Shown here piece after piece: positions 259-12,410 of a stretch of 12,410 nt of DNA (position 1 is the first letter of the stretch; every line of letters begins with the position of its first letter). The translations under genes were made by a program, and so were the position numbers. The notes under the pieces were generated by a model that did no database searches, was not told the DNA's origin, and saw nothing but the letters and a program-made list of their open reading frames with translations. Source of the DNA: Clostridiales bacterium (GTDB lineage Bacteria > Bacillota_E > Sulfobacillia > Sulfobacillales > JAIMBI01); assembly GCA_027318915.1 (NCBI GenBank), contig DAHVOH010000085.1:1-12410 (forward strand). Reading direction: 5' to 3'.

Positions 259-1107
259 TCAACCGCTCTGTTGCCCCGAAGACTCAAACGCATCGGCCAG
301 CCGGCCGATATCCCGCGCACCAAAGCCGCGACCCGCCACCATGTCATAGAGGGTGAGCGACTGGACCGTCAGCGGAATGGACACGCCGGCCGCATCGGCC
401 ATTGCTTGTGCCAGAACCAGGTCCTTCTTCATGAGATCAATGGAAAAGGTGTCTTCGAGCGTCCCCGCCAGGATCTTCGGGACGCGAATCTCCCAGACGG
501 CGTTTTTGCCGGCGCTGCCGCTGTTGGTGATGGCGTCATACAATTTCCCGAGGTCGACCTGAAGGCGTCGTGCCAGCGTCAGCACCTCCGCGACGGCCGC
601 CGCATTGATGCCGGTGAGCATGTTGTTCAGGAGTTTGGCCCGGCTGCCCGCGCCCACCGGTCCGAAATGCACGACGCGCCCCATCGGGTCGACGATGCGA
701 GCGGCTTGGACGACATCGTCGCCGTCGCCCCCGGCGAGGAAGACCCACGCTCCCGCCTGAGGCGGGCCTCCCAGCACCGGAGCCTCCACGTACCGGCCGC
801 CGCCCGCGCGCACCATGCGCTCCGCCAGAATAGCGGTCTCCGGGTCGATGGACGTGGTGTCCACCACCAGAATGCCCGACTGCAGGACGTGGGGAATGAC
901 CGCTCGGACTTCCGCCGGACCCGGCAGGGCCAGCAAGACCACCTCCGCGCTCAGGGCATCAAGATGGGCGGTCGCATACTGCGTCTGAGCCGCCTCCAGG
1001 CGGCGGACATCGCGGTCGTACACCACGATGTCGTACGTGCCGGCCAACCGATTCGCCATGACCGTCCCCATCTGACCAAAGCCCACCACGGCCACCGTTT
1101 CCGTCAA
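259..1107 (-). CDS. NAD(P)-dependent beta-hydroxyacid dehydrogenase, 3-hydroxyisobutyrate dehydrogenase family
   Basis: The 282-residue product is a cytosolic dehydrogenase of the family that includes 3-hydroxyisobutyrate, tartronate-semialdehyde and sulfolactaldehyde reductases. Seen in the sequence: a Rossmann dinucleotide motif GFGQMG (9-14), the substrate-loop equivalent DTTSIDP (83-89), and the catalytic region GAGSRAKLLNN with the expected Lys158 and Asn162. A typical C-terminal segment FSIDLMKKDL also occurs. The substrate loop PVLGGPPQAGAWVFLAGG is about two residues shorter than in the paralogue at 3614-4510, so the two enzymes probably differ in substrate. The start is TTG at 1107. 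GGGGAGGG lies about seven bases upstream of it, and the GxGxxG motif would be lost with the next ATG. It is the last gene of the five-gene operon, 36 bases after the ThDP enzyme. Family is clear; substrate is unknown. Confidence 0.85.
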   Translation of the reverse strand: MTETVAVVGFGQMGTVMANRLAGTYDIVVYDRDVRRLEAAQTQYATAHLDALSAEVVLLALPGPAEVRAVIPHVLQSGILVVDTTSIDPETAILAERMVRAGGGRYVEAPVLGGPPQAGAWVFLAGGDGDDVVQAARIVDPMGRVVHFGPVGAGSRAKLLNNMLTGINAAAVAEVLTLARRLQVDLGKLYDAITNSGSAGKNAVWEIRVPKILAGTLEDTFSIDLMKKDLVLAQAMADAAGVSIPLTVQSLTLYDMVAGRGFGARDIGRLADAFESSGQQSG

Positions 1108-1143
1108 TGCCGCGCCCTCCCCGTCGTGAAAAGTCAGCGTCGT

Positions 1144-2838
1144 TCAGCGATAGAGTCGGCGCACCGGCTTTTTGAGCGCATCGCGCCGCGCGGGAAGCGG
1201 AAATCGTTCCGGATCGACGGGGATCCGAATGACGTGGGTCTCGTGCGGCGCTGCCAACGCGTGCCGCAGGGCGTCGGCCACCGAATCCGGCGTCTCGGCC
1301 GTCACGGCGTCGACCCCGATGGCAGCGGCAACAGCGACCAAGTCGTGGGTGGTGAGATTGGTTCCGACATAGCGCGCGTCGTAGAAATATTGCTGGTTTG
1401 CCTTCTCCGCGCCCCACGCTTGGTTGTCAAACACCACGGCGGTTACGGGAATGCGATGCTCCACGGCCGTAAACAGGGCCGCGATGGACATCGAGAAGGC
1501 CCCGTCGCCCATCAGGGCTACCACGGCCCGCTCCGGACGGGCCAACTTCGCACCCAAGGCGGCCGGAAGCGAAAAGCCTACCCCGCCCAGTCCCAAGGGG
1601 GGAATCAAGGTCACCGGACCGGCATACGGCAGCATACTGTAGGCAAAGGAAGGGCTGCTGCCGATGTCCACCGTCCGGATGGCATCCGCAGGCAAAACGC
1701 GGGCCAGAGCCTGGTACGCCGCTTCCATGGTGAGCAGGCCGCCCGACCAAGCAGCGTTGCCGGCCAGTTCCTCCCGCCATTGGCTGGTCCAAGCGCCAAC
1801 CTGTTCCAGCGTATACTGCGAGTGGACAGTCATGCCCCGTAGAACCACACCCAGCGCCTGCGCGAATTGGCCGACATCGGCCACGATGCCTCGGTCTATG
1901 CGGTAGGTCCGGCCGATGTCCAAGCCGTTGTTGTTCACTTGGACGATTCGGGCTTCCGCCGGGAAATACCCTTCGCCGTAATACGGCAAGAAGCTGAACG
2001 GATCGAGGCGGGTCCCCAGGGCCAAGACCACGTCGGCCCGACGGAAGGCCTCCATGGCCGCCTTGGAGCCGCCGCGCCCCAAGGATCCCAGGTACCACGG
2101 GTGGTCGGATGCGACGGCATCGTTGTGCCCGTATGTCGTGCAGATGGGTGCGTGCAGGATCTCGGCCAGCCGCTCCACAGGAGATTGGGCATCGGCCCAG
2201 GCCACGCCGCCGCCCACCAAAATGATCGGGAACGCGGACCGTTCCAACAACGCGCGGACGGCCTGCACGTCTTCCGCGGCCGGCACGCCACGAACGGGGG
2301 CCACAATCAGATCCCGGGGACGGATGTCGACATCGGCCAACTCATACAGGAAGTCACGCGGGATATCCACAAAAGTCGGACCGAACGGCGGCGTCAAAGC
2401 AATCCGAACCGCTTGCTGAATCGCCTGCGCGATCCGATCGGTGCGATTGACCAGATGGCTCCACTTCGTAATGGGTTGCATGATGTGAACGTGATCAATC
2501 TCTTGGTAGGTGTCCGTGAACAGTTGGGTGGACGTGGGCGATCCGCTGATGACAATCATCGGCGATCGGGCACGGTAAGCCGTGGCCACCCCGGTCACGA
2601 GATTGGTGAGGCCGGCGCCATTTTGTACCAGACAAACGGCCGGTGTCCTCGACACGCGCGCATAGGCGTCGGCCATATGGCCGGCGACCTGCTCATGCCG
2701 CACACCCAAATACGTCATGGAGCTTTGGGGCAAGAGGTCGAACACCTCCAGAATGCTGGAACCGACAATACCGAACGCGTGCCGGATACCGGCCTGCGCC
2801 AGCTGCTCGACAACCTGTTCTCCACCGTTCAATTCCAT
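1144..2838 (-). CDS. xsc: ThDP-dependent enzyme, probable sulfoacetaldehyde acetyltransferase (Xsc-like)
   Basis: The 564-residue product has the three-domain layout of the acetolactate-synthase superfamily. Glu49 in VRHEQVAGHMADAY is the expected cofactor-activating glutamate. The ThDP/Mg motif is GDG (444-446) with DNQ at 471-473. Several segments match my memory of Xsc closely: YGHND (236-240), GSKAAME (257-263), ALGTRLDPFSFLP (273-285), IPVTAVVFDNQAWGAEK (463-479) and the C-terminal RRDALKKPVR (551-560). Xsc converts sulfoacetaldehyde and phosphate to acetyl phosphate and sulfite. Xsc is usually slightly longer (about 590 residues). The usual neighbour phosphotransacetylase is absent here, so a different aldehyde or 2-keto acid substrate is possible. 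Glyoxylate carboligase is less likely because it lacks that glutamate. ATG at 2838 is preferred over TTG at 2859 because it matches the Xsc N-terminus. The start overlaps the hydrolase gene by 10 bases. Confidence 0.75.
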   Translation of the reverse strand: MELNGGEQVVEQLAQAGIRHAFGIVGSSILEVFDLLPQSSMTYLGVRHEQVAGHMADAYARVSRTPAVCLVQNGAGLTNLVTGVATAYRARSPMIVISGSPTSTQLFTDTYQEIDHVHIMQPITKWSHLVNRTDRIAQAIQQAVRIALTPPFGPTFVDIPRDFLYELADVDIRPRDLIVAPVRGVPAAEDVQAVRALLERSAFPIILVGGGVAWADAQSPVERLAEILHAPICTTYGHNDAVASDHPWYLGSLGRGGSKAAMEAFRRADVVLALGTRLDPFSFLPYYGEGYFPAEARIVQVNNNGLDIGRTYRIDRGIVADVGQFAQALGVVLRGMTVHSQYTLEQVGAWTSQWREELAGNAAWSGGLLTMEAAYQALARVLPADAIRTVDIGSSPSFAYSMLPYAGPVTLIPPLGLGGVGFSLPAALGAKLARPERAVVALMGDGAFSMSIAALFTAVEHRIPVTAVVFDNQAWGAEKANQQYFYDARYVGTNLTTHDLVAVAAAIGVDAVTAETPDSVADALRHALAAPHETHVIRIPVDPERFPLPARRDALKKPVRRLYR

Positions 2839-3614
2839 CCGAACGTCCCGCCTTTCCAAAACCGCTCATCCAACACGTTGACCCCGTCGTACTTGCGCAG
2901 CCCCGGATCGTGCGACGGGAAGACGGTCCATTCACGCGGCAACTGTTGCAGCGTGACCGCCAAAACCAACCGATCCGTGGCAATGCCGTTGGGCGTCGGA
3001 GGCTCGCGGGCCAGATTCTCCCGTAAGGGAACGGTGTCGCCCGCCAGCAATATCGGCCCCCTCGGGCCCGCAATGAGGAGGCCCTGCGATCCGGGCGTGT
3101 GACCCGGCAACGGGATGACCTGCACGGCGGGGACATCCCTCCACGGACGCCAGGGTCCGTCGATCAAAGTGAACCGGTCCGGTTGGACGTAGGGAGCCGC
3201 CCTCTCGCGAAAATCGAAATAGATCCAATCGCCCGGCCCGGGCGATTGGGCGTATGCCGCCTCATTCCGCTGCACAAGGATGGTGGCCCCAGCGAACAGA
3301 CTCCAATTGGCGGCGTGGTCCCAATGGAGATGCGAGAGCACGACCGTCTCGACGTCCCCGGGCGCGGCGCCGATGGCGGCCAAACGCTGCAGTGGCTCTT
3401 GCGCCGCGGTTCGGCTGTAGTGCCGATGGCCCATCGCGTGGGCCCGCGGCACAGCGGTGCCCCCCGTATCAAACAGCAGACGGTGGCCCTGGTACTCCAT
3501 CCACCACATGACCATGGGGGCATTGATGGCGACATCAGCAGACAGGCCGGGGCAAAAGGTGGCGGGTTGCACCGCCAAATCGCCCACGACCAGCGGCACT
3601 AAACGCATCGACAT
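2829..3614 (-). CDS. Metallo-beta-lactamase-fold hydrolase, lactonase-like
   Basis: The 261-residue product is a metallo-beta-lactamase-fold protein of the N-acyl-homoserine-lactonase-like group. The binuclear metal ligands are all visible: HLHWDH (95-100), His172 in GHTPGSQ, Asp193 in AGDT and His235 in PSHD. No signal peptide is evident, so it is probably cytosolic. In this operon it more likely opens a lactone or cleaves an ester of the catabolic substrate than quenches a signal; that is inference. ATG at 3614 is chosen because AGGAGG lies six bases upstream; TTG at 3617 would sit too close, and ATG at 3608 is a weaker alternative. The start overlaps the stop of the preceding reductase by one base (TGATG), and the stop overlaps the next gene, suggesting translational coupling. 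Confidence 0.85.
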   Translation of the reverse strand: MSMRLVPLVVGDLAVQPATFCPGLSADVAINAPMVMWWMEYQGHRLLFDTGGTAVPRAHAMGHRHYSRTAAQEPLQRLAAIGAAPGDVETVVLSHLHWDHAANWSLFAGATILVQRNEAAYAQSPGPGDWIYFDFRERAAPYVQPDRFTLIDGPWRPWRDVPAVQVIPLPGHTPGSQGLLIAGPRGPILLAGDTVPLRENLAREPPTPNGIATDRLVLAVTLQQLPREWTVFPSHDPGLRKYDGVNVLDERFWKGGTFGWN

Positions 3615-4510
3615 CAAACGCCTCCTATGCGCGTCTCAATGATCTCTTCCCACCAAGGCACGATGGCGGCGACATCCCGGCCACCCCATCCTCGTGCGGC
3701 CAGCAGCTGATACACTTGCGCGGTTAGCGAACCGTGGAGCAACGGGACGCCAACCTCTTGGGCATAGCGGCCCGCGAGCCGGAGATCCTTCAACGCCAGA
3801 TCAATGGTGAACCCGGGATGATAATTTCCGGGTCCGATATTGACCCCCCAGCGACGGTCCATCGCCGTGCTTTGGGCGCTCCCCGTGCGGAGCACTTCAT
3901 AGACGCGGGCGGCGCTGATTCCAGCTTTGGCCCCTAGGGCAAACGCCTCGGCAAATACCAGCGTGTTGCCCAACGACACGAGGTTGTTCAACAGCTTGAG
4001 GGTCGCCGCTTGGGCGGGACTGTCCACCCAATGAATCTCACGACCGATGCGGGGCAGGACCTCCGCGAGAGCCGACCGCCCCGAGTCCGCGACCCCGGCG
4101 ATGACGGTCAGCGTGCCCTGCCGGGCGCCCGTCTGGCCTCCGATGACGGGACATTGGGCATAAATCAACCCGGATGCCGCGGCCGTCCGAGTAAACCTCT
4201 CCGCACTGTGCGGATCAACCGTGCTAGTGTCTGCGATGATAAGGTCGGAGACTCCTATCTTGCCTATGTCATCCAGGACCCGCTCCACCTGAGCGGGTCC
4301 CGGCAGCGAGAGCACCAACAGTTGAGCGCGGGCCGCCAGCTCCGCCAGGCTTTCCGCGCGCTCAATCCCTCCCAGGTCGTTTCCGGCCCAGACTCCGGGA
4401 TCAACATCCAGGCCCAGGACCGCGCAGGAGTCCGCTCCCAAGTGGCGAGCCATCTCGCGTCCCATCACCCCAAGTCCCACCACGCCGATGGTTCCGATCT
4501 GGCTGTTCAT
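3614..4510 (-). CDS. NAD(P)-dependent beta-hydroxyacid dehydrogenase, 3-hydroxyisobutyrate dehydrogenase family (second copy)
   Basis: The 298-residue product has all family marks: GLGVMG (12-17) for dinucleotide binding, DTSTVDP (94-100), the loop PVIGGQTGARQGTLTVIAG (121-139), the catalytic LKLLNN with Lys172 and Asn176, and FTIDLALKDL near the C-terminus. It is the more canonical of the two paralogues in the operon. Possible substrates include hydroxyisobutyrate, tartronate semialdehyde and sulfo-aldehydes; the sequence does not decide. The open frame continues upstream to 5434, but that part is antisense to nothing meaningful and overlaps the transporter in another frame. ATG at 4510 is the true start, with GGGGGAG eight bases upstream and the Rossmann motif beginning directly after it. 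The gene lies 20 bases after the transporter and overlaps the hydrolase by one base. Confidence 0.87.
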   Translation of the reverse strand: MNSQIGTIGVVGLGVMGREMARHLGADSCAVLGLDVDPGVWAGNDLGGIERAESLAELAARAQLLVLSLPGPAQVERVLDDIGKIGVSDLIIADTSTVDPHSAERFTRTAAASGLIYAQCPVIGGQTGARQGTLTVIAGVADSGRSALAEVLPRIGREIHWVDSPAQAATLKLLNNLVSLGNTLVFAEAFALGAKAGISAARVYEVLRTGSAQSTAMDRRWGVNIGPGNYHPGFTIDLALKDLRLAGRYAQEVGVPLLHGSLTAQVYQLLAARGWGGRDVAAIVPWWEEIIETRIGGV

Positions 4511-4530
4511 GCGGCGAACTCCCCCGTGGG

Positions 4531-5907
4531 TTACTGTGATAGTTTTTCCAGCGATTGACCTTTCGTCTCGGTTCCGAACAGGATCATCGCCGCCACAGCG
4601 ACGACGGCATCCAGGCAAAACACCAACATCGCGCCGGACAACCCGACCGACTTTAACAAGAGCGGCAGGATGAGGATGCCCACGATGGACCCCAGTCGAC
4701 CCAGCCCCGCCGCAAACCCCGTGCCCAGGGAGCGAATCTCGGTCGGAAAGACCTCCGGAGCCACCACGCCGACCAACCCGGCCGGTCCGATCCACGCCGA
4801 CAACTGGAACAGACTGAAGAGCGCCAGCAGCACACCGAAGATGAGATGGTGCGCCAGCAGGGATACGGTGAGGTCGACCGCCGCCAAGAGCGAGAATCCC
4901 AAGATGGCCAGCGTCTTGCGACCCGCCCGTTCGACCGACAGGTACATGATCGTCGAGCCCATAACGGCAAACACGGCGACGATCATCCCTCCCAGCAACG
5001 ATCGCGAGGCGGTGAAGCCCAAGGTCTTGAAGATGAATGGGGTGAAATATCCGATGCCGTACGTGTTGACCGTGATGCAGAACCACATGAACACGATGTA
5101 CAAGGTGCGGCGGGTTTGGGCCGGTGACGCGAACAGGGCAGAAAACCGGGGCCGTACCGGTGTCGGTCGCGACGCACGGTCGCGGGAGTCGGCGTGAAAC
5201 GAGGCGACGGATCCCGTGCCGCCGGCGACGGTTGACGCACTGACGGCCTCTGCTTCCTGTGTACGACCCTGAAGGAACAGCCAGCGGGGCGACTCCGGCA
5301 AAGCGCGTCGCCGGATCAACACGATGGCCGCCGGGATGACCGAGAGGGCAAAGAGAAAGCGCCACGTGTTGGGACCAAAGACCGGAAGGAACAAGTAACT
5401 GATGGCATAGGTGATCAGACTGCCGACCGTCCACATGATCCAGGTGCTGGCGTTGAGGCGTCCCCGAGCCTTGTTCGGTGCAAATTCCGCGATGATCGTG
5501 AAGCTGAGCGCTTGGTCAGCGCCGATGCCGAAGCCCAGGGCAGCCCGACAAAACAGCAGCATGCCGTAATTGACGGACAGTGCGCTGAGGATGGCAAACA
5601 GGCCATACAGCACGATGTCCCACGTGTACATGAACTTCCGGCCAAAACGGTCCGACAAGTACCCGACCGACAAAGCGCCGACGAATGTGCCCACGTATGT
5701 GGAGATGGCGAGAAACGAAATCTGCACGGCGCCCAGCTGGAAGTACGGCACCAGGAAAATCAGAGCCGAAGCAATATTAGTAAAATCATACCCTTCCAGG
5801 AAGACGCCCATACCGGACAGGAATGTTACCAGCCTGTGGAAACGGTTCACCGACGCATCGTCCAGCGCTTGCAGCGCGGACGCGGACACGCTTGGTGTCG
5901 TCGCCAT
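4531..5907 (-). CDS. MFS transporter, sugar/organic-acid porter type
   Basis: The 458-residue product is an inner-membrane major facilitator with about twelve hydrophobic segments and a hydrophilic central loop at roughly 210-265. Signature motifs are GYLSDRFGRK (82-91) between helices 2 and 3, PESPRWL (204-210) after helix 6, the repeat motif ERAGRK (326-331), and ETKGQSLE (447-454) at the end, as in the sugar-porter and aromatic-acid/H+ symporter groups. It probably imports the substrate of the operon by proton symport. ATG at 5907 is preferred over the ATGs at 5928 and 5923 because AGGAGGGG lies just upstream of 5907. It is the first gene of the operon and faces the LysR gene, so it should be the most directly controlled. 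The substrate cannot be read from the sequence. Confidence 0.9.
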   Translation of the reverse strand: MATTPSVSASALQALDDASVNRFHRLVTFLSGMGVFLEGYDFTNIASALIFLVPYFQLGAVQISFLAISTYVGTFVGALSVGYLSDRFGRKFMYTWDIVLYGLFAILSALSVNYGMLLFCRAALGFGIGADQALSFTIIAEFAPNKARGRLNASTWIMWTVGSLITYAISYLFLPVFGPNTWRFLFALSVIPAAIVLIRRRALPESPRWLFLQGRTQEAEAVSASTVAGGTGSVASFHADSRDRASRPTPVRPRFSALFASPAQTRRTLYIVFMWFCITVNTYGIGYFTPFIFKTLGFTASRSLLGGMIVAVFAVMGSTIMYLSVERAGRKTLAILGFSLLAAVDLTVSLLAHHLIFGVLLALFSLFQLSAWIGPAGLVGVVAPEVFPTEIRSLGTGFAAGLGRLGSIVGILILPLLLKSVGLSGAMLVFCLDAVVAVAAMILFGTETKGQSLEKLSQ

Positions 5908-5954
5908 GCTTCCCCTCCTGCATCTCATGCTAGTGGAACTTGTTCGGGCAACGG

Positions 5955-6012: not shown

Positions 6013-6951
6013 GTGCGACTGACGCAACTCATCTATTTGGACGCGGTGATCCGCCATGGCAGTTTTCACAAAGCGGCCGCGGCGCTGCACATCACGCAGC
6101 CCACCCTCAGCGAGCAGATTCATGCCTTGGAAGAGGAGTTGGACGTGCTCCTCCTGCAGCGTTCGCCAACCGGTACGATACCCACCGCGCAGGGCCAGCA
6201 GGTCCACACCCATGTGCAATCGATCTTGGCGGCGGTCGACGATATTTACCAGGAAACGCGGCTGGACCGACATATGGAAGTACGGGTGGGCATTATCCCC
6301 ACCGTGCAGCAGTGGGGATGTCTCGGCGAACTGGCCACGCGTATGGCCGGCATTCAACCGCACGTACAGCTGCAGGTCAATCAATACGGAGCCCTCGACA
6401 TCACGCACAAGATCGACGTCGGCGCGCTGGATGTGGGATGCGTGACCTGGACGGATGCGCTTGCCCCCCGGTTTCCCCACACCAGGGTGCGCAAGCTGGT
6501 GCCGGGCCGGATTGTGCTGGCCGTTTCCCCCCAACATCCGTTGGCGGAGAAATCTCGCGTGACTCTTCGTGAGATTGCGGCGCATCCTTTGGTCGTCTTC
6601 CCCGAAGGATACCTGATGCACGAGTTGGTTCTGGGACATTTTCGCCGGGAGGGCTACCCATTTCGCGTCCTGTACTATTCCGAGAACGGGGCGACATTGA
6701 TCCAGACCATTCGCCGCGGCGATGCGGTCGGGTTCTTATACGTTCTGGACCCTTCCTTCTCGTGGGCCAATCCGCGAGACGACCTCGTGCGCATACCCGT
6801 GCCGGAGTTGGCGGAGCCCATTTGGCTGGTGGTTGCCCACCATGCCGTGCTGCGGGGAACGCGTGGCCGCCTCATCCGTGAAACGACAGCGGTCATCGAG
6901 AATCTGTTGCGGGGTAATGATGCGCCGGATGCACCCGTCGGCGATCGATGA
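6013..6951 (+). CDS. LysR-family transcriptional regulator
   Basis: The 312-residue product has the normal length and layout of a LysR-type regulator. The N-terminal winged helix-turn-helix covers about residues 1-60; the recognition part is near 18-37, with AAAALHITQPTLSEQIHALE as the typical core. A linker helix follows, then a substrate-binding domain to about residue 300. GTG at 6013 is the start: it places MRLTQLIYLDAVIRHGSF at the N-terminus as in the family, and AGAGAGG lies about ten bases upstream. The longer open frame back to 5512 runs antisense through the transporter and is not real. The gene is divergent from the five-gene catabolic operon and probably activates it in response to a pathway metabolite, binding the two dyads between them. 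The inducer is unknown. Confidence 0.92.
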   Translation: MRLTQLIYLDAVIRHGSFHKAAAALHITQPTLSEQIHALEEELDVLLLQRSPTGTIPTAQGQQVHTHVQSILAAVDDIYQETRLDRHMEVRVGIIPTVQQWGCLGELATRMAGIQPHVQLQVNQYGALDITHKIDVGALDVGCVTWTDALAPRFPHTRVRKLVPGRIVLAVSPQHPLAEKSRVTLREIAAHPLVVFPEGYLMHELVLGHFRREGYPFRVLYYSENGATLIQTIRRGDAVGFLYVLDPSFSWANPRDDLVRIPVPELAEPIWLVVAHHAVLRGTRGRLIRETTAVIENLLRGNDAPDAPVGDR

Positions 6952-7281: not shown

Positions 7282-9210
7282 ATGGCTCACAGGGGACGTT
7301 TGACCCAGCCATTGATACGCGGTCGGGACGGGACGCTCCGTCGAGCGACCTGGGACGAGGCGCTCGATCGGGCCGCGGACGGGTTCCGACGCGGATTGGC
7401 GGAGCGGGGTCCGGACAGCATCGGCATTTTCAGCTGCTCCAAGGCCACCAACGAGGTCAACTTTCTGGCCCAAAAGTTCGCCCGGGTGGCACTCGGCACC
7501 AACAACATCGACAGTTGCAACCGCACCTGACACGCACCGAGCGTCGTCGGTCTGGCGACGGTTTTCGGAGCCGGGGGCGGCACCAGTTCTTATCGAGAAT
7601 TTGAAGACACGGATCTCATCCTATTGTGGGGGTCAAACGCCCGGGAAGCCCATCCCATCTTCTTTCATCATGTCTTGAAGGGCATCCGGCGGGGCGCCCG
7701 CCTCTACGTCGTGGACCCTCGGCGCACCCCGTCGGCCGAGTGGGCGCATCTCTGGGCGGGACTGGACGTGGGTACCGACATTGCTTTGGCCAACGCCATG
7801 GGCCGCGAGATCATCCATGCCGGACTGGCCAATATGGCGTTTGTCCGCCGGGCCACGGAAGGCTTTGACGCATACCGCGCCTCGGTGGAATCGTGCACGC
7901 TGGACTGGGCGGAAGGCGTCACCGGAGTGCCGGCGGATGTGATCCGCCAACTGGCGCACGACTATGCCCGGGCGGAACGGGCGGAACTCTGCTGGACGCT
8001 GGGCATCACGGAGCACCACAACGCGGTCGACAATGTGTTTGCCCTCATCAACCTCGCGCTCTTGACCGGCCATGTCGGGCGCTACGGCTCGGGTCTGAAC
8101 CCTCTCCGGGGCCAGAACAACGTGCAGGGCGGCGGGGACATGGGAGCGCTTCCCAACAAGCTGCCGGGCTTTCAGGACATCGAGACCGACGACGCCGCGC
8201 GGGCGCGCTTCGAAGCGGCGTGGAACACCGTCATCCGTCCGCAGCGTGGCATGCACCTCTCGCAAATGTTTGACGCCATGGAGGCCGGAACACTGCAAAC
8301 GCTCTATGTCATCGGGGAAAATCCGGCCCAGTCGGAAGCCGACAGCCGGCGGACCGTCAAATTGCTGCGCGGTCTGGACCATCTGGTGGTCCAGGACCTG
8401 TTTCTCACCCGCACGGCGGAACTGGCCGACGTGGTCCTGCCCGGCACCGCGTCCTGGTGCGAGTCGGAGGGCACCGTCACCTCCAGCGAACGCCGTGTGC
8501 AGCGTGTGCGCAAGGCGCTCGAACCTCCCGAGGGGACGCGGGATGACCTGTGGATCCTGTCCGAGCTGGCCGAGCGACTGGGGCATGGGTGGGGCCACCC
8601 CGCCGCCGAGGAAATCTGGGACGAATGCCGTGGACTCTCCCCCATGCACCGGGGCATGAGCTATGCGAGACTGGAGGCCGAGAACGGGATCCAGTGGCCT
8701 TGCCCGGATGCGTCTCACCCGGGGACGCCGTTTTTGCACGCGCGCCTGTGGGAGGACCCGCGCACCGGACCGCCGGCTCCGTTTCAGCCGGTGATGCATG
8801 AGGGCCCCCTGGATGCGCTGACCGACGACTTTCCTCTGCGACTCACCACCGGACGGCGGCTGGAGTCTTTCAACACCGGTGTCATGAGCACCCGCTACCG
8901 TCCGCCGACGGCGCCGGGCGCCCAATTGTACCTGGCTCCGGAGGACATGGCGCTGCACGACTTGCAGGACGGCGACCGCGTCCGCGTCGTGTCTCGGCGC
9001 GGCGCGGTCGAAACGCCCGTCCGGAGTGACGCGACGCTCCGTCCCGGCCTTGCCTTCATGACCCTGCATTTTCCCGACCAGGTTGACACCAACACCTTGA
9101 CGCCGGATTTCTGGGATGCCAAATCCGGGACGGCGGAGTTCAAAGCCAGCGCGGTGCGGCTGGAACCCATCCGTGCCGGTCGGACTGCGGTGACGGAGGT
9201 GCCGTCATGA
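7282..9210 (+). CDS. fdhA: Formate dehydrogenase catalytic subunit, selenocysteine-containing, lacking the N-terminal [4Fe-4S] domain
   Basis: The 642-residue product oxidises formate to CO2 (or runs in reverse) at a Mo/W bis-pterin centre. One frame runs from ATG 7282 to 9210, broken only by TGA at 7528-7530, read here as Sec83. The context NNIDSCNRT-U-HAPSV places it where family members have Sec or Cys, followed by His84. Arg276 in LRGQNNVQG lies 193 residues after Sec83, the same spacing as Sec140 to Arg333 in E. coli FdhF. The C-terminal pterin-binding domain begins near 517. AAGGGGG lies seven bases before the start. The protein begins at RLTQPLIRG, just after where the N-terminal CxxCxxxC domain should be; that domain is fused to the gene at 11057-11989. 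The stop overlaps the next start (ATGA). A conventional gene finder would split it into two open frames at the TGA. Confidence 0.93.
7528..7568 (+). other. Selenocysteine codon and bacterial SECIS hairpin
   Basis: TGA at 7528-7530 is followed by a stem-loop. CGTCG (7542-7546) pairs with CGACG (7556-7560), and CCGA (7537-7540) pairs with TCGG (7565-7568) across an internal bulge. The nine-base loop TCGGTCTGG contains GGTCT (7549-7553), the apical motif of the E. coli fdhF SECIS bound by SelB. Eighteen bases separate the TGA from GGTCT, the same as I recall for E. coli fdhF. The element also codes for protein in the same frame. Confidence 0.85.
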
Positions 9211-11060
9211 CGGATGGGACTCACGAACGACGGCGCGAGATTTCGGCCGCGGAGCAGGCAGCGGTGGACGCGGTGCTGGGACCCGCGCCGTCGACCTGGA
9301 CTGGGGGCGGACGCCACGCGCCCGATCTCCATGCCAGCCGCCGCGAAGCCGACCACCGCGATTTGCTCCTGCCGGCCCTAGAGGCATTGTCTCGCACCGC
9401 GGGATATGTGACCCCGGAGGGCCTTGCCTACATCGGCCGCCGCCTTGGCTTGGCGCCGGCCGAAGTGTATGGTGTGGCAAGCTTCTATGCCCTGCTGCCC
9501 GTCGACCCGCGCCCGCCGGTGACCGTGCATGTGTGCGACGATGCCGTGTGCCGTCTCCAGGGCGGAGAGGAACTGGCCGCCCAGCTGGCAGCCACATGGG
9601 GACCCGAAGGCAAGCCCTTGGGAACGGCCACGTGGTTGAGAAGCAGCTGTCTTGGCCATTGCGCCCAGGCGCCCGCCGTCTTTGTGCAGCGGGCCGGCGC
9701 GCCCCCGGAACAAGCCATCGTGGCGCCGGCCCAGGTGGCTCCTTTAGCCGCCTGGGCCGCTGGAGGCTCCCCGTTGTCGGAGACTTCACCCACATCGGCG
9801 GGAGCCGTTTCGTCGGTGGCTGACGGTTTGCTGACCCGCGTCGGGGTCGTGGATCCGACCGACATCGACGCCTATCGCGCCGCCGGCGGGTTTCAGGCGC
9901 TCCGGCGGGCGCTGGAGCTGGGCTCCGAGGGCATCCTCCAGGAGGTACGCGAGGCCGGTCTCTCCGGGCGCGGCGGCGCCGCATTCCCGACGGCCAGCAA
10001 GTGGCGCGCGGTGGCGGAGAATCCAAACCGACCCGCCTACGTGGTGTGCAACGCGGACGAATCTGAACTGGGCACCTTCAAGGACCGCGTCCTGCTGGAA
10101 GAGGACCCGTTTGCCGTCGTCGAGGGCCTGATGATTGCCGGGTACGCCGTGGGCGCGCATCACGGCTATGTGTTCGTGCGCGGAGAATATCCCCGCGCCC
10201 GCCGCCGGATTGAGGCGGCCGTATCCCAGGCGCGCGCGCGCGGCTATTTGGGAGCGAGCGTGCTGGGGCGCCCGTACGCCTTCGACATCAGTGTGCGTGC
10301 CGGACAAGGCGCCTACGTGGCCGGGGAAGAGACGGCGCTGTTCAACGCCATCGAGGGACGTCGGGCGGAGCCGCGCAACAAACCGCCGTTTCCCACCAGT
10401 CACGGCCTCTTCAACCGTCCCACCGTCATCAACAATGTGGAAACGCTGGCCAACGTGCCCCTCATTCTTCGCATCGGCGGCGCCCGCTACGCCGAGGGGG
10501 GCGCGGGAACCGTCACCGGCACCCGCCTCTTTTCGGTGTCCGGTCACGTGCAGCGACCGGGGGTCTACGAGGCGCCGTTCGGAACGCGTCTAGGGGCCCT
10601 GCTGGACCAGGCCGGCGGGCTCGCCCCCGGTCGCCGCCTGCAAGCGGTGCTGCTGGGTGGGGCGGCCGGGTCGTTTGTAGGGCCCGACGCCTTGGACATG
10701 CCGCTGTCTCCGGAGGGCGCGCAGGCGTGGCAAGCCAGTCTCGGCTCGGGAGCGGTCATGGTGTTTGATGACACGGCCGATGTGACGGCGGTTGTCCGAC
10801 GGGTGGCACGGTTTTTCCGCGATGAGTCGTGCGGGCAGTGCGTGCCCTGTCGCATCGGCACGGCGCGCCAGGAAGAGTTGGTGGAACGCTTGGCGGCAGG
10901 CCACGGCACGTTAGCCGACGGGCAGCGCCTGCACGCCGACCTGGTCGCCGTGATGCGCGACGCGTCCATCTGCGGCCTCGGGCAGACGGCGGGCAACGCC
11001 GTGGAATCCGCCCTGCGGCTCGGCTTGCTGGGTACAGCCATGAAGGAGGGAACACCATGA
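9207..11060 (+). CDS. NADH-oxidoreductase (diaphorase) subunit, NuoE-NuoF fusion of formate dehydrogenase
   Basis: The 617-residue product joins two subunits that are separate in complex I and in FdsG/FdsB. Residues 1-180 are NuoE-like, with [2Fe-2S] ligands Cys110, Cys115, Cys148 and Cys152 (CDDAVC and CLGHC). A low-complexity linker spans about 181-210. Residues 211-617 are NuoF-like: GLSGRGGAAFPTASKW (251-266) and CNADESELGTFKDR (281-294) bind FMN and NADH, and Cys542, Cys545, Cys548 and Cys589 (CGQCVPC and SICG) hold a [4Fe-4S] cluster. It should pass electrons from the formate dehydrogenase centre to NAD+. DESELGT differs from the usual ESEPGT by one residue. ATG at 9207 overlaps the upstream stop (ATGA), with GGAGG seven bases before it. 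No membrane segment is present, so the complex is probably soluble. Confidence 0.93.
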   Translation: MTDGTHERRREISAAEQAAVDAVLGPAPSTWTGGGRHAPDLHASRREADHRDLLLPALEALSRTAGYVTPEGLAYIGRRLGLAPAEVYGVASFYALLPVDPRPPVTVHVCDDAVCRLQGGEELAAQLAATWGPEGKPLGTATWLRSSCLGHCAQAPAVFVQRAGAPPEQAIVAPAQVAPLAAWAAGGSPLSETSPTSAGAVSSVADGLLTRVGVVDPTDIDAYRAAGGFQALRRALELGSEGILQEVREAGLSGRGGAAFPTASKWRAVAENPNRPAYVVCNADESELGTFKDRVLLEEDPFAVVEGLMIAGYAVGAHHGYVFVRGEYPRARRRIEAAVSQARARGYLGASVLGRPYAFDISVRAGQGAYVAGEETALFNAIEGRRAEPRNKPPFPTSHGLFNRPTVINNVETLANVPLILRIGGARYAEGGAGTVTGTRLFSVSGHVQRPGVYEAPFGTRLGALLDQAGGLAPGRRLQAVLLGGAAGSFVGPDALDMPLSPEGAQAWQASLGSGAVMVFDDTADVTAVVRRVARFFRDESCGQCVPCRIGTARQEELVERLAAGHGTLADGQRLHADLVAVMRDASICGLGQTAGNAVESALRLGLLGTAMKEGTP

Positions 11061-11989
11061 GCGACCGGCAGCGCCGCGTGGACGTCACCATCGACGGACG
11101 AAACCTCTCGGTGCCGGAGGGTCAAACCATTCGCGAAGCATGCGAGGGAGCGGGCATCGACGTGCCGACGCTCTGCTATCTCGAAAATCTGGCGCCGGTG
11201 AACGTCTGCCGCGTCTGCGTCGTGGAAGTGGAGGGCAGCCGCACGCTGGTGCCGTCCTGCTCGCGGCCGGTAACGGCGGGCATGGTGATCCGCACCGATT
11301 CGCCGCGTGTGAGGACCAGCCGGCGCATGGTGTTGGAATTGTTGGCCTCCGCCGTCGACCTGTCCGCCGCAGACGCCACGGTGGAGCGGTGGGCGGCCGA
11401 CTATGGCGCGGACCCCTCCCGCTACGGCGCGGCCGCAGACGCTTCCTGGACTCCGCAACCGGCCGGCCACCACCATCCGGTGCCACCCGGTCTGGCGGCC
11501 ACCGGCGCCCAGCCGGTCAAAGTGGATAACGAGCTCTATGTCCGCGACTACAGCCGCTGCATTCTCTGCTACAAGTGCGTGGAGGCGTGCGGGCAAGAGG
11601 CGCAGCACACTTTTGCCATTTGGGTCGCGGGCCGCGGCTTCGACGCGCACGTGGCGACGGAGTTTGAGGTTCCGCTGCCCGAGTCGACCTGCGTGTATTG
11701 CGGCAACTGCATCGGCGTGTGTCCCACCGGTGCCCTGATGTTCAAGAGCGAATACGATCTGAGGCAGGCGGGCGCGTGGGCGCCGGAGCGGCAGACGGTC
11801 ACGGAAACCATCTGCTCGTACTGCGGCGTCGGTTGCACGCTGGCGCTGCACGTCCAGGACAACCGCATCGTAACCGTCACCTCGCCGCTGGACCACGAGG
11901 TGGGACACGGCCACCTGTGTGTCAAAGGCCGGTTCGGCTACGCTTATGTACAGGACCTGGACCCTGAGGACCCGACTGCAAGCCCGTAA
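11057..11989 (+). CDS. Iron-sulfur subunit of formate dehydrogenase: NuoG/HoxU-like ferredoxin fused to the N-terminal [4Fe-4S] domain of the catalytic subunit
   Basis: The 310-residue product carries the electron chain between the formate site and the diaphorase. A [2Fe-2S] domain comes first, with Cys40, Cys51, Cys54 and Cys68. Two [4Fe-4S] motifs follow: Cys168, 171, 174, 178 (CILCYKCVEAC) and Cys212, 215, 218, 222 (CVYCGNCIGVC). The His/Cys cluster motif usual between them in NuoG is absent; the region near 95-120 has no Cys. The last 60 residues are the start of a catalytic subunit: CSYCGVGC (253-260), Cys288 and Lys290 in CVKG, matching Cys8, 11, 15, 42 and Lys44 of E. coli FdhF. The protein then stops at 310, before the pterin domains, which are encoded separately at 7282-9210. 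ATG at 11057 overlaps the upstream stop, with AAGGAGG seven bases before it. Confidence 0.92.
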   Translation: MSDRQRRVDVTIDGRNLSVPEGQTIREACEGAGIDVPTLCYLENLAPVNVCRVCVVEVEGSRTLVPSCSRPVTAGMVIRTDSPRVRTSRRMVLELLASAVDLSAADATVERWAADYGADPSRYGAAADASWTPQPAGHHHPVPPGLAATGAQPVKVDNELYVRDYSRCILCYKCVEACGQEAQHTFAIWVAGRGFDAHVATEFEVPLPESTCVYCGNCIGVCPTGALMFKSEYDLRQAGAWAPERQTVTETICSYCGVGCTLALHVQDNRIVTVTSPLDHEVGHGHLCVKGRFGYAYVQDLDPEDPTASP

Positions 11990-12097: not shown

Positions 12098-12410
12098 CTA
12101 TTGTGCCGTCAATGCCGGGCGGCCCAGCGTCCTGGGTCTTGGGTTCTCGGCTCGTCTACCCGCTGCCACCCGCCGTCTCCGCCGCGTCGCCGCGCCCTCG
12201 CCCGGTTCGCGCCAGCCATGCGCTCGCGCCCAAGAGAAGAGCGATCGCCGCAAGCGAGACGCCGATGTCACCCAGAGCGTTCCCTTCCATCTCGATGTTT
12301 CTGGGGCTAGGCACACGCTGGTAGGTTGGGCGCACGGCAGCGGTATTTCCTGCTCGACCTCCCCGCTCGCGGCTAGCCGCACAATCTTGCTACCTGCCCA
12401 CATCGCGATC
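12098..12410 (-). CDS. Partial SMP-30/gluconolactonase-like protein, C-terminal part, possibly decayed
   Basis: This frame enters from the right edge and ends at TAG (12100-12098). Its first 50 residues resemble the last beta-propeller blade of SMP-30/gluconolactonase/regucalcin proteins: IAMWAGSKIVRLAASGEVEQ, then EIPLPCAQPTSVCL and GTLWVTSA, where the family has patterns like VARWGGxRVxRYxPDG, IxLPxxxPTS and TLYVTSA. The match ends near 12260. The rest of the frame is an arginine-rich tail of about 54 residues unlike the family's C-terminus, so a frameshift or decay after WVTSA is likely. The fragment converges on the formate dehydrogenase operon. About 60 bases of GC-rich spacer without features separate it from the stem-loop ending at 12034. 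Function, if intact, would be hydrolysis of a sugar lactone; this is tentative. Confidence 0.4.
   Translation of the reverse strand, partial: IAMWAGSKIVRLAASGEVEQEIPLPCAQPTSVCLAPETSRWKGTLWVTSASRLRRSLFSWARAHGWREPGEGAATRRRRRVAAGRRAENPRPRTLGRPALTAQ

Follow-up and report, generated by a model that had tools for sequence, protein, structure and literature searches.

The locus described here raises the question of how a formate dehydrogenase (FDH) can be built when its catalytic chain lacks the proximal iron-sulfur domain that such chains usually carry. The window, by which we mean the whole 12,410-nt stretch analysed (contig DAHVOH010000085.1 of assembly GCA_027318915.1, a Clostridiales bacterium of the lineage Sulfobacillales), holds three consecutive genes on the forward strand. 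CAT (7282..9210) encodes the bis-molybdopterin guanine dinucleotide (bis-PGD) catalytic chain of an FDH, 642 residues long when an in-frame TGA is read as selenocysteine (Sec) and devoid of the N-terminal Fe4S4 domain. EF (9207..11060, 617 residues) is a fusion of NuoE (2Fe-2S, thioredoxin-like) and NuoF (flavin mononucleotide (FMN)/NADH, 4Fe-4S). FES (11057..11989, 310 residues) is a NuoG/HoxU-type ferredoxin (2Fe-2S and 4Fe-4S) with an FDH Fe4S4 domain at its C-terminus (11795..11953, residues 247-299), and ATGA overlaps join the genes at both the CAT/EF and the EF/FES border. A preliminary description of the locus was right about the split and missed both the Sec codon and the wide distribution. 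We confirm that the alpha subunit is split, and we propose that the three genes very probably encode one soluble NAD-dependent FDH in which a partner subunit supplies the proximal [4Fe-4S] cluster in trans. The exactness of the split, its conservation, the single clade of the split chains, the Sec and selenocysteine insertion sequence (SECIS) signals and the gene order are computed results.

Domain searches of the window proteins placed PF04879 (Molybdop_Fe4S4) on FES only and PF00384 and PF01568 on CAT only, so that CAT has the molybdopterin and dinucleotide-binding domains without the Fe4S4 domain. The Fdh-alpha model TIGR01591 (672 positions), which calls for the Fe4S4 and pterin domains on one chain, was divided between two proteins: CAT matched positions 50-671 with 620.1 bits, under the NCBI curated equivalog cut-off of 666.25, and FES matched positions 1-52 with 51.6 bits. 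Likewise, on FdsA of Rhodobacter capsulatus FES covered residues 25-305 and CAT residues 304-931. The two proteins are thus complementary parts of one alpha subunit, overlapping by 2-3 positions, and the cut comes after the Fe4S4 domain has ended and before the RLTxPLxR stretch begins, with nothing of note missing. These alignments bear out the preliminary description, which had placed the cut on a domain border and had the halves cover a standard alpha subunit with little lost. A structure model of CAT (predicted local distance difference test score, pLDDT, 78.7) aligned with 6tg9_A from residue 301 and with Escherichia coli FdhF from residue 56. The model of FES (pLDDT 57.9) was too poor for placing the displaced domain, and a fold search on it was not used.

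Conservation of both halves follows the same line. C253, C256, C260, C288 and K290 of FES were invariant in 40 of 40 aligned proteins; the lysine, already singled out in the preliminary description as the conserved residue between cluster and cofactor, would act across a subunit interface. Of 91 split loci, 90 had a terminal CxxCGxGC...CxKG motif with a stop soon after it; a strict pattern recognised 81 and a looser one 9 of the remaining 10, L025 fitting neither. Conversely, an Fe4S4 motif was found in frame upstream of split CAT at none of 109 Sec sites and none of 32 cysteine (Cys) sites, duplicate loci counted, nor within the first 120 residues of any of the 120 database CAT proteins listed. 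Among 38 aligned CAT proteins, His84 and Arg276 were invariant and residue 83 nearly so. We take U83, H84 and R276 to be the catalytic positions of the FDH active site, and CAT has the Sec/Cys-His pair and the Arg that mark such a site; among solved structures, its closest relatives in sequence are FDHs.

Residue 83 of CAT, at the active-site ligand position, is the in-frame TGA (7528..7530), predicted to encode Sec in the context NNIDSCNRT-U-HAPSV. The codon was TGA in all 72 split loci, the window included, whose match covers this residue, a recount made without selecting on the codon; in another listing each of 13 split rows had one TGA and none of 15 other rows had a stop. A bacterial SECIS hairpin is predicted at 7543..7559 (+), with a 6-bp stem and the loop GGUCU, 15-31 nt past the T of the TGA. 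An Rfam search of the window at the gathering threshold did not find a SECIS, and therefore the hairpin was tested by comparing Sec with Cys copies. The loop was invariant across 90 distinct Sec windows and occurred in 6 of 27 Cys copies, and the third codon position within it was T in 90/90 Sec but 6/27 Cys copies. Pair 17-29 was formed in all 90 Sec windows (C-G 79, G-C 11) versus 10 of 27 Cys windows, and pair 20-26 in all 90 (C-G 88, G-C 2) versus 8 of 27, so that both pairs show compensatory changes among Sec windows. Pair 19-27 was formed in 1 of 27 Cys windows. Pairs 15-31, 16-30 and 18-28 are uninformative, being formed in 27/27 Cys windows as well because the codons force them. With its in-frame TGA and conserved hairpin CAT has the signature of a bacterial selenoprotein. 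Furthermore, a tRNA-Sec above the Rfam cut-off was present in 13 of 14 relatives' genomes, compared with 5 of 14 well-known control genomes; the remaining relative, G012, has a tRNA-Sec below the cut-off and is also without a split CAT match.

The count of 72 in 72 might suggest that the family always uses Sec, and we rejected this idea since Cys copies are frequent. Cys occupied the Sec position in 117 of 120 listed database CAT proteins by motif and in 2 more from the sequence, the last having Arg; such versions occur, for example, in Streptomyces. Sec genes appear in the database in truncated form, which is why it holds mostly Cys copies, and the frequencies in the Sec and Cys sets are not comparable. 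In Cys copies the cut has the same position as in Sec copies.

The preliminary description had suggested looking in other genomes for ferredoxins with a terminal Fe4S4 domain near a truncated catalytic gene, and such loci are common. A protein search with FES was limited to the best 7,999 candidates, of 0.55-1.75 times the FES length and all at E ≤ 1e-3; PF04879 was carried by the 120 candidates listed. Among pattern matches on genome contigs, at least 586 of 592 encode a relative, and the best 80 loci were used. Their titles name Actinomycetota, Bacillota, Chloroflexota/Thermomicrobiales, Acidobacteriota, Planctomycetota, Spirochaetaceae, Eisenbacteria, Dormiibacterota and Eremiobacterota, labels that may be wrong for metagenome-assembled genomes (MAGs), and the set also includes one 3-kb alphaproteobacterial contig. 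The order CAT-EF-FES on one strand, that is, C-terminal part, NuoEF and N-terminal part as first described, recurred in 69 of the 80 loci, under nine phylum-level labels, CAT being cut by the contig end in some. Of the remaining 11, the upstream end of EF is no more than 0.5 kb from a contig end in 8, and CAT is absent from the stretch examined in 3. CAT and EF need not be adjacent: in L073 both are on one 21,025-base contig, CAT some 7 kb upstream; in L056 CAT is on a separate 3,363-base contig of the draft; and 1-4 kb separate the two genes in L031, L033, L046 and L048. By eye the gap of L046 holds an MFS transporter-like gene, and that of L031 holds short open reading frames. No CAT match was found in the 1.6-Mb draft of L070.

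In an even sample of the phylum to which the Actinomycetospora locus L034 belongs, 44 of 296 genomes matched split CAT at E ≤ 1e-170. Among the matches listed, 33 of the 296 genomes look split by match range and identity (30 with TGA, 2 without a stop and 1 with its best match beginning at residue 91), and the other 11 matches come from relatives that bear the Fe4S4 domain. Within one order 31 of 119 genomes matched split CAT, all 31 without a stop. A search of a plasmid collection found no FES match at E ≤ 1e-60. Several single loci depart from the common form. In L204 (5795-7833) the split CAT match is broken just past the Sec/Cys position, with residues 6-85 and 87-633 in different frames about 160 nt apart, by a frameshift, an insertion or an assembly error; L030 has a frameshift within CAT. 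L159 (1261-2825, reverse strand), an early-branching split member, has NuoE- and NuoF-like matches as two open stretches in different frames, while most members have them fused. L058, the alphaproteobacterial MAG contig (3,020 bp), has FES and EF, and its genome yielded neither a split CAT match nor a tRNA-Sec above the cut-off; it is possibly a binning contamination.

On our reading, the three genes make up one enzyme with the electron chain usual for its kind, the one change being the chain that bears the proximal domain. Formate would be oxidised at the Sec-ligated Mo/W-bisPGD centre of CAT; the C-terminal domain of FES would dock on CAT as part of a separate subunit and bring its lysine to the pterin over the chain boundary; and electrons would pass from the pterin via K290 to the proximal [4Fe-4S] cluster of that domain, then through the ferredoxin clusters of FES to the NuoF 4Fe-4S cluster, FMN and NAD+. 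We infer this trans-cluster mechanism from the conserved Cys and Lys residues, the complementary coverage and the co-conservation of the parts; the assembly of the domain in trans, the NAD+ acceptor, formate as the substrate and the direction of the reaction are predictions from sequence.

Two other identities for the locus have to be weighed against this enzyme. It could be an ordinary full-length alpha gene broken by the TGA, by a frameshift or by misjoined contigs, and indeed the in-frame TGA is really there and gene callers start past it. Yet the same gene order in 69 of 80 loci speaks against a frameshift or misassembly, the TGA stands in every covering split locus with a SECIS that covaries, and Cys copies, which have no stop, show the cut at that very position, so that we consider an artefact scarcely credible. 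CAT might instead be a related pterin oxidoreductase that serves another substrate through the same NADH module: it scores 620 bits against the NCBI Fdh-alpha cut-off of 666, and an unrelated catabolic cluster is also in the window. The 50 missing N-terminal positions can explain that shortfall, however, since FES scores 51.6 bits there; together with the conserved Sec-His and Arg positions and the FDHs that head the list of solved relatives, this makes another substrate improbable.

The proposed enzyme can be compared with several known systems. FdsABG of R. capsulatus (6tg9, 6tga) is likewise NAD-dependent, and FES and CAT together span residues 25-931 of its FdsA. In that enzyme FdsA is one chain and FdsG and FdsB are separate, whereas here the alpha subunit is divided and NuoE and NuoF are fused. 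EF has the parts of a diaphorase module of the FdsABG/MeFDH1 type, NuoE plus NuoF with FMN/NADH and 4Fe-4S sites (PF01257, PF01512 and PF10589, the NuoE, FMN and NADH-4Fe4S domains), but the ferredoxin domain, fused to the catalytic chain in those enzymes, is here on FES. FdsA presumably has Cys, not Sec, at the active-site position. In Methylorubrum extorquens MeFDH1 (7vw6, 8j83, 7e5z), alpha is one chain and the enzyme contains W (PMC10869683); here alpha is cut between the proximal Fe4S4 and pterin domains, the catalytic gene comes first, and the metal may be Mo or W.

Hyl-type bifurcating FDHs are expected to carry extra ferredoxin-type 4Fe-4S domains on their NuoF-like subunit. A domain search of EF for Fer4-type families at E ≤ 0.001 found none, and electron bifurcation is therefore unlikely. 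FdhF2 of Clostridium acidurici, as an FdhF-type chain, presumably has its own Fe4S4 domain. The FdhF2-HylABC complex shares with our system a separate ferredoxin-like subunit, an FDH chain and a flavin-containing NADH-binding subunit, and differs in that HylA is a relative of the FeFe-hydrogenase HydA (PMC6085437). Justice et al. 2014 (PMC4378227) reported a putative cytoplasmic Sec-FDH beside NuoEFG-like genes in Sulfobacillus, for which they proposed a coupling of formate to NAD. It is perhaps the same family, and the consulted portions of that account make no mention of a split alpha or of an Fe4S4 domain on the NuoG-like gene. A description of the split alpha was not found in the open-access literature searched, in agreement with the preliminary description, whose author knew of none.

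Where did the two halves come from? Trees of the parts were built with L084-L088 dropped as duplicates and short or stop-bearing matches left out, thinned to 30 fused and 18 split rows in one tree and to 20 fused and 16 split rows in the 52-row CAT tree and in the Fe4S4 and ferredoxin trees; roots were unset, and the groups for topology tests were named after seeing the trees. In the 148-row CAT tree the 71 split rows formed a single clade (support 93), and 7 stand-alone FdhF chains that have their own Fe4S4 domain were its sister group (joint support 100), and the same groupings appeared in the 52-row tree (98, 100). The stand-alone Sec-FdhF proteins (L149-L154, L164, L199-L201, L205), which come from the phylum sample described above, are the nearest catalytic relatives, with a mean identity of 54% and the same Sec context, and differ from CAT in their own N-terminal Fe4S4 domain. 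FdhD lies upstream of FdhF in both such loci examined (L149, L199), and no NuoEF or ferredoxin gene was found nearby in the stretches examined, some of them short. The ferredoxin part of FES, by contrast, was sister to 227-230-aa ferredoxins (99) from Chloroflexota operons with the order EF-ferredoxin-FDH, where the FDH itself still carries the Fe4S4 domain. In two of these operons, L289 (8186-14130) and L290 (8609-13951), EF-ferredoxin is followed by a pair of consecutive FDH catalytic matches, the first of which in L290 has an in-frame TGA in Sec context. Outside the split family the NuoF part of the window is nearest to the same operons (50-55% identity; others at most 46%), and in the EF tree split and Chloroflexota rows shared a group of weak support (85); L159 did not join the other split rows there, and L172, labelled 'other' in that tree, is a split-type locus. 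The electron module and the catalytic chain thus appear to have different nearest kin, which suggests, short of proof, a mosaic origin of the split family.

The preliminary description had suggested a circular permutation, in which a fused alpha in EF-A order was copied in tandem and each copy then lost a different half, leaving CAT-EF-FES. Such a history would yield the final gene order, and it fits the single clade of split CAT and the resemblance of FES to the FdsA N-terminus over the whole FES length; since the CAT tree is unrooted, the sister FDHs could themselves have lost partners. Against it, the two halves have different nearest relatives among those sampled, CAT grouping with stand-alone FDHs and the FES ferredoxin with Chloroflexota ferredoxins encoded apart from the FDH. 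Holding split CAT with the Chloroflexota operon FDHs was 218 log-likelihood units worse and rejected (P-value of the approximately unbiased test, p-AU, 7e-103). Holding the split ferredoxins with the fused-FDH N-termini was weakly rejected (p-AU 0.039), as was holding the Chloroflexota ferredoxins with them (p-AU 0.040), while one clade of split, fused and Chloroflexota ferredoxins was not rejected (p-AU 0.47), all for groups chosen after the fact. We do not favour permutation and think it rather unlikely, though possible in an unsampled ancestor. A domain handover seems to us about evenly balanced between right and wrong: in an EF-ferredoxin-FDH operon the gene border would have shifted by one domain (or a fused alpha would have lost its catalytic part), leaving Fe4S4 on the ferredoxin, and a chain of the stand-alone FdhF lineage would have taken the place of the catalytic chain and afterwards dropped its own, redundant domain. 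Operons of the starting type exist in Chloroflexota, and the ferredoxin tree and, less firmly, EF link the split family to them where CAT does not. The mean identity of the split Fe4S4 domain, 55.7% to Chloroflexota FDHs versus 40.9% to the CAT sister clade, is the reverse of that of CAT (39.7% versus 54.0%).

Several observations run the other way. The Fe4S4 tree (54 columns), which gives handover no confirmation, placed split and sister domains weakly together (78/46), the branch of the sister clade being long, and is too short for deciding the side of origin. Beyond this, the EF grouping is held by a support of 85 and sets L159 apart, and the Chloroflexota FDHs could be the replaced ones. 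We also entertain, more tentatively, that the family is a chimeric molybdoenzyme obligately complemented in trans, with a stand-alone Sec-FdhF catalytic chain that lost its own [4Fe-4S] domain, the domain on a ferredoxin of another lineage, and a selenium-gated operon. Because Sec is codon 83 of the first gene and ATGA overlaps join the genes in the window, an undecoded UGA could leave only an 82-residue stub and shut the NADH module by polarity. The weak fork of split and sister domains in the same Fe4S4 tree counts against this reading, as do the identities of the split domain in a separate comparison, 44.2% to the stand-alone clade and 47.0% to fused FDHs, whose tree is likewise too short to decide the origin.

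Around the operon, family searches identified a LysR-type regulator gene upstream of CAT (6019..6951, forward strand, start approximate), a possible regulator of CAT-EF-FES. An opposite-strand cluster (259-5928) encodes an MFS (major facilitator superfamily) transporter, two 3-hydroxyisobutyrate-dehydrogenase-like enzymes, a metallo-beta-lactamase-fold protein and a thiamine pyrophosphate enzyme whose best match, sulfoacetaldehyde acetyltransferase, scores 504 bits, below the cut-off of 620. At a guess, it perhaps serves a glyoxylate/tartronate- or sulfonate-type pathway. An open frame at 12098-12409 (reverse strand) runs off the window end.

Formate dehydrogenases are intensely studied for CO2 reduction. 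The split family is widespread and unremarked in the open-access literature searched, its function probably ordinary. CAT is likely under-annotated in databases, because it falls below the alpha cut-off in the window and an apparent stop cuts it in Sec species. The arrangement means that the proximal iron-sulfur domain can be part of a different subunit from the catalytic chain that usually contains it. Pterin module and relay might then be expressed, loaded and exchanged separately, and a lysine acting in trans would offer a direct test of the electron path from cluster to cofactor.

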